From: Sanguibacter suaedae
GTDB lineage: Bacteria > Actinomycetota > Actinomycetes > Actinomycetales > Cellulomonadaceae
Assembly (NCBI RefSeq): GCF_016342785.1
Contig: NZ_JAEINH010000015.1
Span: 1 to 40,032 of the forward strand
DNA: 40,032 nt
Reading direction: 5' to 3'
Positions 35,069 to 36,927 of this stretch are shown piece by piece; the stretch's first letter is position 1; each line of letters starts with the position of its first letter. The position numbers were made by a program, and so were the translations under genes. The notes beneath the pieces are model-generated. The model was not told the DNA's origin. It searched no databases and saw only the letters and a list, made by a program, of their open reading frames with translations.

Positions 35069-36130
35069 TCACGAAGGGCCCCGGTCCTCCCACCGTTCGG
35101 TGGGAGGACCGGGGCCCTTCGTCGTGCGTGGTGTCCTGAAGTGCCCAGGGCAGAAGTCCCAGTCGTCGTCCTCGGTGTTCACGGCCTTGCCGATGACGTA
35201 CGAGGAGCCGGACCCGGAGAAGAAGTCGTGGTTCTCGTCGGCGTTGGGGCTCAGGGCGGAGAGGATCGCCGGGTTGACGTCCGTCTCGTCCTTGGGGAAG
35301 AGGCCCTCGTAGCCGAGGTTCATGAGTGCCTTGTTCGCGTTGTACCGCAGGAACTTCTTGACGTCCTCGGTGAGACCGACGCCGTCGTAGAGGTCCGCGG
35401 TGTACTGGACCTCGTTCTCGTAGAGTTCGAAGAGGAGCTCGAAGGTGTACGCCTTCATCTCGTCGCGCTCGACGGGGGAGAGCTTCTCGAGACCCTTCTG
35501 GAACTTGTACCCGATGTAGTACCCGTGCACGGCCTCGTCACGGATGATGAGGCGGATGAGGTCGGCCGTGTTCGTGAGCTTGGCGCGGCTCGACCAGTAC
35601 ATGGGCAGGTAGAAGCCCGAGTAGAAGAGGAACGACTCGAGGAGCGTCGAAGCGACCTTCCGCTTGAGCGGCGAGTCCCCGTGGTAGTAACCGAGGACGA
35701 TCTCCGCCTTGCGCTGGAGGTTGACGTTCTCCTCCGACCAGCGGAACGCGTCGTCGATCTCCTGCGTGGAGATGAGCGTCGAGAAGATCGACGAGTAGCT
35801 CTTCGCGTGGACCGACTCCATGAACGCGATGTTCGTGTAGACGGCCTCCTCGTGCGGGGTGATCGCATCGGGGATGAGGCTCACGGCCCCGACGGTGCCC
35901 TGGATGGTGTCCAGGAGCGTCAGCCCGGTGAACACGCGGGTGGTGAGCTCCTTCTCCTGGGGGGTGAGGGTGGCCCACGACTGGATGTCGTTGGACACCG
36001 GGACCTTCTCGGGGAGCCAGAAGTTCCCGACGAGCCGGTCCCAGACCTCGGCGTCCTTCTCGTCGTCGACGCGGTTCCAGTTGATCGCCTGGACGCGGTC
36101 GATCAGCTTGAGCTTGCCGGTGGGGGTCAT
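35069..36130 (-). CDS. nrdF: Class Ib ribonucleotide reductase small subunit NrdF, with an unusual C-terminal extension
   Basis: The subunit that holds the dimanganese/diiron tyrosyl radical for NrdE. Metal ligands Asp74, Glu105, His108, Glu165, Glu199 and His202 and radical Tyr112 (in [12 protein letters not shown]) are all present, each offset by +7 from Salmonella NrdF. The ATG overlaps the stop of the endonuclease gene upstream (ATGA), and its purine-rich ribosome-binding region lies in that gene. NrdF normally ends at Asp-Trp-Asp-Phe; here DDDWDF reaches residue 326 and the next codon is TGC (35150-35152), one base from TGA. The frame then runs 27 more residues to a TGA at 35069, through the terminator hairpin at 35071-35122. 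Since the R2 tail docks on R1, this could matter, or a base error may be involved. Core identity is certain. Confidence 0.95.
35071..35122. terminator. Perfect 25-bp hairpin between FKBP gene and nrdF
   Basis: Left arm 35071-35095 and right arm 35098-35122 are fully complementary around TT. It starts 15 bases after the FKBP stop. On the nrdF side it starts 27 bases after the codon where NrdF normally stops, the position expected of a terminator. In this sequence it is nevertheless inside the nrdF open frame. No T-tract follows. Confidence 0.85.
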
Positions 36131-36927
36131 CGATTCGTCTCTCTCATTGGTGAAGATTGCACTGTCAAGTCCGTCTGTGTGCAAAACCGGCAGGTTTCGC
36201 TCACGACACCTTTGTTCGTGTGGTAGCGAGTGTGCGCGCTGCGCGCGCTCGACGGTTTTGGAATGCCCTTCTGAGCTGCTGACCGCTTTGCACGAGTCTC
36301 TGCACTCGCTGTCTTGCCATAGTTCGGGTTGAGCGAGCCCCTGCGTTGCTCTGATAGCTGCGCACGTGCCTCCGGCGACATGACGCGACCATATCCAGGA
36401 TGCGCTGTACCAAAGCGGCCGAAGTTGATGTTCTCCGCGCCGACGTTGGTGCCACGTCGCAACTCCGACCATCGCTGTCGCTGCGCCTCGCTGTGCTTTC
36501 CGCCGTGGAAAGGGTTGAGCTCCCCCGGTCGACTCAGACCTTGCCGTCCGGTCGACCGGACTCGTGCCGCCTCCCGTTGCTCCTCTGTCCACACGAACCC
36601 AGTTGGTCCCAGACCACCCAATGAAAGGTTCAGCAACCGATCGCCGGCAGCCTTTCGAGACGCTATCCAGGCGATCTCAGCGAGGCCCAAAGCCTCGAGA
36701 TCCGTAGTCACGGTCTCGAGCACGTCGACAGCAAGATCCTCAGGGGTGTGCTTTCGCAACCAGTCGTAGAACGGCCTACGCCTCCCGGAGGCCGCCACCT
36801 TGAGGTGCTGACGCAACCTCGAGGCGGCGGTCTTCGTCGTCAGGCCGACATATCGGTAGCCGGAGTCGCGGGCAAGCCTCACCCCGTAGATGACGCCCAC
36901 GGAGATCGAGGCATCCTTGTCGCTCAT
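36127..36927 (-). CDS. GIY-YIG homing-endonuclease-type protein with NUMOD3 repeats, between nrdE and nrdF
   Basis: A 266-residue site-specific endonuclease-type protein. The N-terminal GIY-YIG nuclease has VIY (12-14) and YVG (26-28), with Tyr14, Tyr26, Arg37, Glu84 and Asn100 placed much as the catalytic residues of I-TevI (6, 17, 27, 75, 90). The middle holds three NUMOD3-like DNA-binding motifs (about 135-156, 164-191, 198-221), each with an Asn-rich N/G-x-FG or NPNYGK turn and a charged helix. The C-terminus has His232, His236, Cys246 and Cys249, a possible zinc site ([18 protein letters not shown]). It starts 16 bases after nrdE without a clear Shine-Dalgarno and overlaps nrdF by four bases. 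Three 60-base lines counted by eye are 58, 62 and 58% GC, lower than most neighbours. It is free-standing: both nrd genes have normal ends here, so there is no sign of an intron or intein. It is probably a mobile gene. Confidence 0.9.

Follow-up and report, generated by a model that had tools for sequence, protein, structure and literature searches.

A free-standing GIY-YIG homing-endonuclease-type gene at a fixed site behind nrdE, and the altered NrdE tails found beside it

Introduction

To our knowledge, free-standing homing endonucleases have been studied mainly in phages. Hef, like MobE, is reportedly an enzyme of T4-type phages found between nrdA and nrdB. The presence of homing endonucleases between phage reductase genes is already known, T4 mobE being an example: it sits in the class Ia operon between nrdA and nrdB, and its product is described as an HNH enzyme that targets nrdB, the small-subunit gene (PMC2988022). 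Many T5orf172 enzymes are likewise described near reductase genes in phages (PMC10448857). Intron enzymes are described as cutting at most 25 bp from their insertion site (23/25 nt for I-TevI, the GIY-YIG enzyme of the T4 td intron), whereas for free-standing enzymes of phages the distance is hundreds to thousands of bp, as it is for the Seg endonucleases of T4, which are intron-less GIY-YIG genes lying between host genes and co-converting their flanks (PMC2988022).

Here we describe a gene of this general kind from Sanguibacter suaedae, found in a window of 40,032 nt (by which we mean the whole stretch of DNA analysed), together with its relatives in other genomes. Its product shares with I-TevI the catalytic fold and a modular tail predicted to bind DNA, and its inferred target would likewise lie within tens of nucleotides of the gene; unlike for I-TevI, no intron was found, and the gene lies between genes, mostly in bacterial chromosomes. 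It resembles the Seg genes in being an intron-less GIY-YIG gene between host genes, but differs from them in an adjacent footprint and in hosts that are mostly bacterial chromosomes. Like mobE, it stands between two class I reductase genes. The original prediction drew this parallel, which holds in place only, since MobE is of the HNH type (PMC2988022). The same arrangement as here is annotated in Arthrobacter phage Talia1610, where gp111 is given as a G-I-Y Y-I-G endonuclease between nrdE and nrdF of an nrdHIEF operon; that protein differs in being from a phage, is 35% identical to ours and is known from annotation alone. Among titles and abstract openings of the open-licence PMC literature we found nothing on an actinobacterial endonuclease gene lying between nrdE and nrdF, nor, in the same literature, on a target-linked change of the NrdE tail or on cleavage by this bacterial family. 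What is new is the altered NrdE tail beside intact copies of the endonuclease gene.

Results

All four genes of the operon are present in the window on the minus strand, as identified with Pfam and NCBIfam profiles: nrdH (39517..39762, Pfam), nrdI (39058..39474, Pfam), nrdE, which encodes the class Ib large subunit (36944..39094, matched over the full length of TIGR04170 and by Pfam), and nrdF for the small subunit (35069..36130, Pfam and NCBIfam). Between the last two, where the original prediction had placed a nuclease-type gene, we confirmed a minus-strand open reading frame of 266 aa with an ATG start (36127..36927), supported by Pfam, PHROG, a structure model and a 28-member alignment. 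It begins behind a gap of 16 nt that follows the nrdE stop (36928..36943), which from the sequence and from comparison with congeners would be the left edge of the insertion, and its own stop overlaps the nrdF start in an ATGA (36127..36130) through which the two genes may be translationally coupled. The gene is free-standing: no group I intron was found in an Rfam scan of 35000-40032, and the nrdE and nrdF profile models are each matched in a single stretch, with nrdE uninterrupted. As a separate observation, the nrdF frame extends 27 codons beyond the usual ...DDDWDF end, the usual stop having seemingly been lost, and this extension (35069-35150) reads through a long hairpin that resembles an operon terminator.

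The encoded protein is a GIY-YIG nuclease, as judged by its fold match and its invariant Tyr/Tyr/Arg/Glu/Asn set, with the Pfam score just below the cut-off (E 6.7e-4, 20.3 bits against 22.6). At E 0.001 the GIY-YIG model is matched by only 3 of the 28 family members, and NUMOD3 by all of them. In the window protein NUMOD3 is significant (E 3.9e-12) in one stretch; the three motifs claimed for it are repeats visible by eye only. The protein further matches a PHROG of homing endonucleases (E 4e-19) and the NCBIfam model of group I intron endonucleases (TIGR01453; E 3.6e-11, 43.5 bits, below the cut-off of 56.05), and no Pfam match to HNH appeared up to E 1. An AlphaFold2 model contains blocks within residues 11-100 at pLDDT of at least 90, the model as a whole reaching pLDDT 73 and pTM 0.41. 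The best Foldseek match of the catalytic part is the I-TevI catalytic domain (probability 1.00, target TM 0.74-0.76, E 3e-3); no solved structure matched the modelled catalytic part at E 0.001 or below, a sequence search of solved structures returned nothing at E 1, and the solved I-TevI domain is 18% identical to the window protein. The residues named in advance as catalytic (Y14, Y26, R37, E84 and N100) proved invariant across the 28 aligned members, and we take them to correspond to the key residues of I-TevI. Equally invariant are H41, H232, H236, C246 and C249, the last four of which form a plausible metal site in the sequence.

Relatives were gathered from viral contigs, species genomes and genus and family samples, yielding 40 non-redundant loci with an nrdE end and later 32 more (57 were added, of which 23 had nrdE ends already known and 2 were mutual repeats). 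Left out of the first-set counts were L003, with frameshifts also in nrdE and nrdF that were taken as sequencing error, the weak viral matches L004 and L005 (47 residues of the NUMOD3 region, with no nrd gene found nearby) and the duplicates L006, L035 and L066; in the codon table, rows with identical last 600 nt of nrdE were merged. The endonuclease is the next gene behind nrdE in 72 of the 72 non-redundant nrd-linked loci. In the first set its match starts 10-70 nt behind the stop of nrdE, L179 (136 nt) being the one exception; in the second it starts 29-63 nt behind it. Because the gene follows nrdE even where nrdF lies elsewhere, as in two Nocardia loci (L025, L027), one of Mycolicibacterium (L019) and one of Mycolicibacter (L026), its constant partner is the nrdE end and not the nrdE-nrdF junction. 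Each of the 16 carriers searched whole holds a single copy.

Several other features were seen around this address. In the genus Arthrobacter, L088 and L106 have nrdE-nrdF gaps of 566 and 641 nt with a tiny ORF (YRSAxTGRxVT...TTVKE) amid inverted repeats, and this may be a further small mobile cassette using this address. In Gordonia, long gaps between nrdE and nrdF (L168, L172, L176, L189, L191) were considered as carriers and rejected, as they hold an unrelated gene of ~250 aa; Gordonia L186 has a long gap as well. In other loci of that genus (L188, L190, L192, L193/L195, L194) the nrdE match is lengthened or split by ~11-12 codons, suggesting that some NrdE proteins of Gordonia carry a small insertion loop. 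The metagenome-assembled contig L008 is titled Proteobacteria and carries an nrd operon with 77-87% protein identity to that of the window; it is probably mis-binned or mis-titled. L001, listed in IMG/VR as viral, shares its nrdE end and both the start and the end of its endonuclease with Microbacterium schleiferi L033, and is probably a chromosomal fragment.

The predicted free-standing GIY-YIG/NUMOD3 gene of homing-endonuclease type is supported, and its presence is sporadic. It occurs in one of the five congeners and in one of 58 other relatives in all. The empty junctions to be sought in close relatives were found in three of the remaining four congeners (L038, L040, L042), where nrdE and nrdF are both in view with no gene between them; in the fourth, L045, the contig stops 230 nt behind nrdE. 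A sample of the class gave 4 carriers among 393 other genomes, one of them truncated (L069), and three host families, selected because they already held carriers, gave 26/395, 16/401 and 14/220. On an nrdE tree of 172 rows, 40 of them carriers, presence and absence changed at least 28 times. The empty site of L038 measures 61 nt and ends in GAGAGAGACGAAGCG before the nrdF ATG; the window retains this leader, differing at a single base, as the final codons of its endonuclease gene (36127..36147, alignable as GAGAGAGACGAAxCG followed by ATG).

Broken copies were found in both sets (L034, L065 (stop at the first GIY-YIG Tyr), L069, L121 and L179 in the first, L234 and L235 in the second). Purifying selection acts on the intact copies, with dN/dS of 0.05-0.36 in 55 computable within-genus pairs, the pair of the window and L007 yielding no dS. 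A search for gene remnants in 108 non-carrier intergenic stretches of at least 60 nt returned a single weak match by tblastn (E 0.02) and, by blastn, short matches (15-39 nt), all taken as chance.

A further signal lies in nrdE itself. By non-carrier we mean a locus whose stretch behind nrdE gave no match; nrdF is seen there in 96 of the 132, and L045 and L133 offer only 230 and 160 nt. NrdE usually ends in TEVEGCVSCML (100/132 gene-free loci). Counting the stop as codon -1, codon -8 encodes Gly in 115/132 non-carriers vs 9/40 carriers, and reads AAT in 18/40 carriers vs 1/132 non-carriers; in the window it is AAT, hence Asn. In the samples of five genera, 14 of 15 carriers have Asn-8, as against 7 of 108 non-carriers (p 5e-6 by permutation within genera), and a within-genus scan of 150 nrdE codons, carriers against gene-free loci, placed every codon with p<0.01 between -14 and -5. 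This footprint, the candidate target, corresponds to 36956..36985 (minus strand) of the window, and its sharpest nine bases read GAAAATTGC there (36970-36962). Phylogenetically independent pairs gave a median p of 0.008 for AAT and a modest result for Asn-8 (median p 0.012, range 0.0005-0.23); a post hoc pair test on tails without Gly-8 or Met-3 (median p 0.0005) was not relied on.

The original prediction had named both neighbouring reductase genes as targets, and by analogy with mobE the enzyme might act on nrdF, or on both. The gene does usually lie between the two (in 32 of the 40 first-set carriers nrdF is at most 900 nt from the stop of nrdE), and MobE is described as targeting nrdB, again a small-subunit gene (PMC2988022). 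The part of the claim that stood is nrdE, with its 3' footprint and its constancy as neighbour. For nrdF, none of 60 codons counted from the AINWN motif onward reached p<0.01 (11 carriers, 73 non-carriers; ~14 preceding codons lay outside the scan), and the gene sits behind nrdE where nrdF is distant. We thus regard nrdF, alone or together with nrdE, as a highly improbable target.

Comparison of tails points to three alternative positions of change, E-11, G-8 and M-3, within codons -11 to -3 (36950..36976, minus strand): carriers mostly have Asn at -8, otherwise Ala or Thr at -3 or Ser or Thr at -11. The consensus combination (Glu-11, Gly-8 and Met-3) occurs in 0 of 35 intact carriers vs 111 of 132 non-carriers (109/130 without L045 and L133). 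As this three-position rule was framed after the first set, a prediction was written beforehand and tried on further loci, where the consensus was found beside none of 30 intact copies (0 of 30); as these loci belong to host families already sampled, they do not count as independent lineages. Nor is the change restricted to carriers, since Asn-8 also occurs in 15 of the 132 non-carriers and 21 of them lack the consensus tail. Beside broken copies both states are seen, with consensus tails next to L065 and L069 and changed tails kept next to the other three of the first set and both of the second. Tail type required 8 changes on the endonuclease tree vs 11 on that of nrdE (minima over 200 shuffles, 14 and 13), and so follows the endonuclease tree slightly better than the nrdE tree. 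Two further ideas were dropped: a broad co-conversion tract, as the anomaly does not reach beyond the last ~27-42 nt of nrdE, and the CNNNG motif at which I-TevI cuts, which, viewed by eye only, did not separate carriers from non-carriers.

A different reading of the same footprint is that the protein serves the host: it would recognise the end of nrdE as an operator or an RNA element and tune nrdF expression, with the tail codons as its binding site. Such a role would fit the purifying selection, the possible ATGA coupling to nrdF in the window and the closeness of the footprint to the gene, and I-TevI is described as acting also as a repressor (PMC10448857). However, the gene is absent from most sampled genomes, is broken in some and conserves its catalytic residues; the tails deviate in several different ways with no single shared motif, and nrdF is not downstream in four loci. 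A host factor of this sort therefore seems very unlikely to us.

Signs of transfer come from two genera. In the Gordonia pair L015/L017, dS is 0.088 in the endonuclease gene vs 0.381 in nrdE. In Nocardia, the similarity of L110 to L025 is mostly 95-100% along nrdE (60-nt steps, lowest 90%), falls to 78-92% from -40 across the gene, and returns to the former level at ~+943 to +1170; from -33 to +3, L110 matches L027 and not L025. The left breakpoint, at which L110 passes from L025-like to L027-like nrdE, thus maps between -34 and -19 as counted from the end of the nrdE stop. The right side of the tract is less clear, as the similarity of L027 and L110 also declines to 82-88% over the final part of the gene.

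In the gene tree, which left out broken copies except L179 (the trees used for tail type left out broken copies and phage contig L002), copies group mostly by host genus or family, so that much of the transfer is short-range or some of the descent vertical. One could go further and see here an old, vertically inherited gene with frequent loss, the changed tails being lineage markers and not a means of immunity. While the grouping by genus and family agrees with this, the at least 28 changes on the nrdE tree, the transfer seen in the Gordonia and Nocardia pairs and the localised recurrence of the tail change within five genera do not, and we give this account hardly any credence.

Lower GC had been taken as a sign of recent arrival, perhaps from a phage reductase operon. 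The gene is indeed lower in GC (0.614, vs 0.640 in nrdE and 0.633 in nrdF, a small gap) and strongly so in GC3 (0.689 vs 0.964 and 0.973), but in 55 of the 55 loci measured, counting duplicates, its GC3 lies below that of nrdE (means 0.70 vs 0.92). Low GC3 is therefore a family trait, and neither a dating tool nor proof of recent arrival. In the suggested search of actinophages, in which three of 35 phage records were examined, the order nrdH-nrdI-nrdE-endonuclease-nrdF was seen in Talia1610; the phage-like contigs L002 and L257 share it. Their tails are changed as well: Asn-8 and Ser-11 in L256 (the same as L002), Ser-11, Glu-8 and Ala-3 in L257, and Ala-3 in Talia1610. Relatives in phages GMA2 and Sixama are more distant and, as annotated, not beside nrd genes. 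The shared gene order and the low GC3 would suit a recent entry of the gene into this genome from a phage nrd operon, an event compatible with homing; yet phage copies are only 35-48% identical to the window protein, the nearest relatives found (62-66% identity) are not from phages, and the low GC3 is family-wide. With copies clustering mostly by host genus or family and those of phages on long branches, the claimed origin in a phage operon is not borne out, and we consider such a recent arrival unlikely. Exchange of the endonuclease between phages and bacteria, its direction left aside, is likely.

Discussion

We consider it probable that the gene is a free-standing homing endonuclease that has its home, and its target, at the nrdE 3' end, and that it brings its own resistant version of that end. 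Under this proposal, the I-TevI-like N-terminal domain would cut a gene-free copy of nrdE within its last ~10-14 codons, with the NUMOD3 repeats and the C-terminal His/Cys site binding the DNA. The break would be repaired from a carrier, be it the chromosome of another strain or a phage nrd operon, and repair would copy in the gene immediately after the stop of nrdE, along with a short altered nrdE end. This end, with Asn-8, Ala/Thr-3 or Ser/Thr-11, would no longer fit the enzyme and would thereby render carriers immune. Such an insertion would spare both reductase genes and use the transcription of the operon.

We also lean, with less assurance, towards a broader view in which a selfish endonuclease circulating among actinobacterial chromosomes and phages has repeatedly rewritten the C-terminal redox-cysteine tail of NrdE, an essential enzyme, next to CVSC, the tail acting as an immunity tag that exists in three versions matched to endonuclease lineages. 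As the footprint is adjacent to the gene, the geometry would be that of an intron enzyme in a free-standing gene, possibly because an element inserted behind a stop codon has no need of an intron.

In a family where a fixed chromosomal site goes with dozens of matched empty alleles, several broken alleles and a readable footprint, it would be possible to follow invasion, immunity, decay and loss of such an element in bacteria. Variation in the conserved NrdE tail, in turn, may stem from the target site of a parasite rather than from the chemistry of the reductase.
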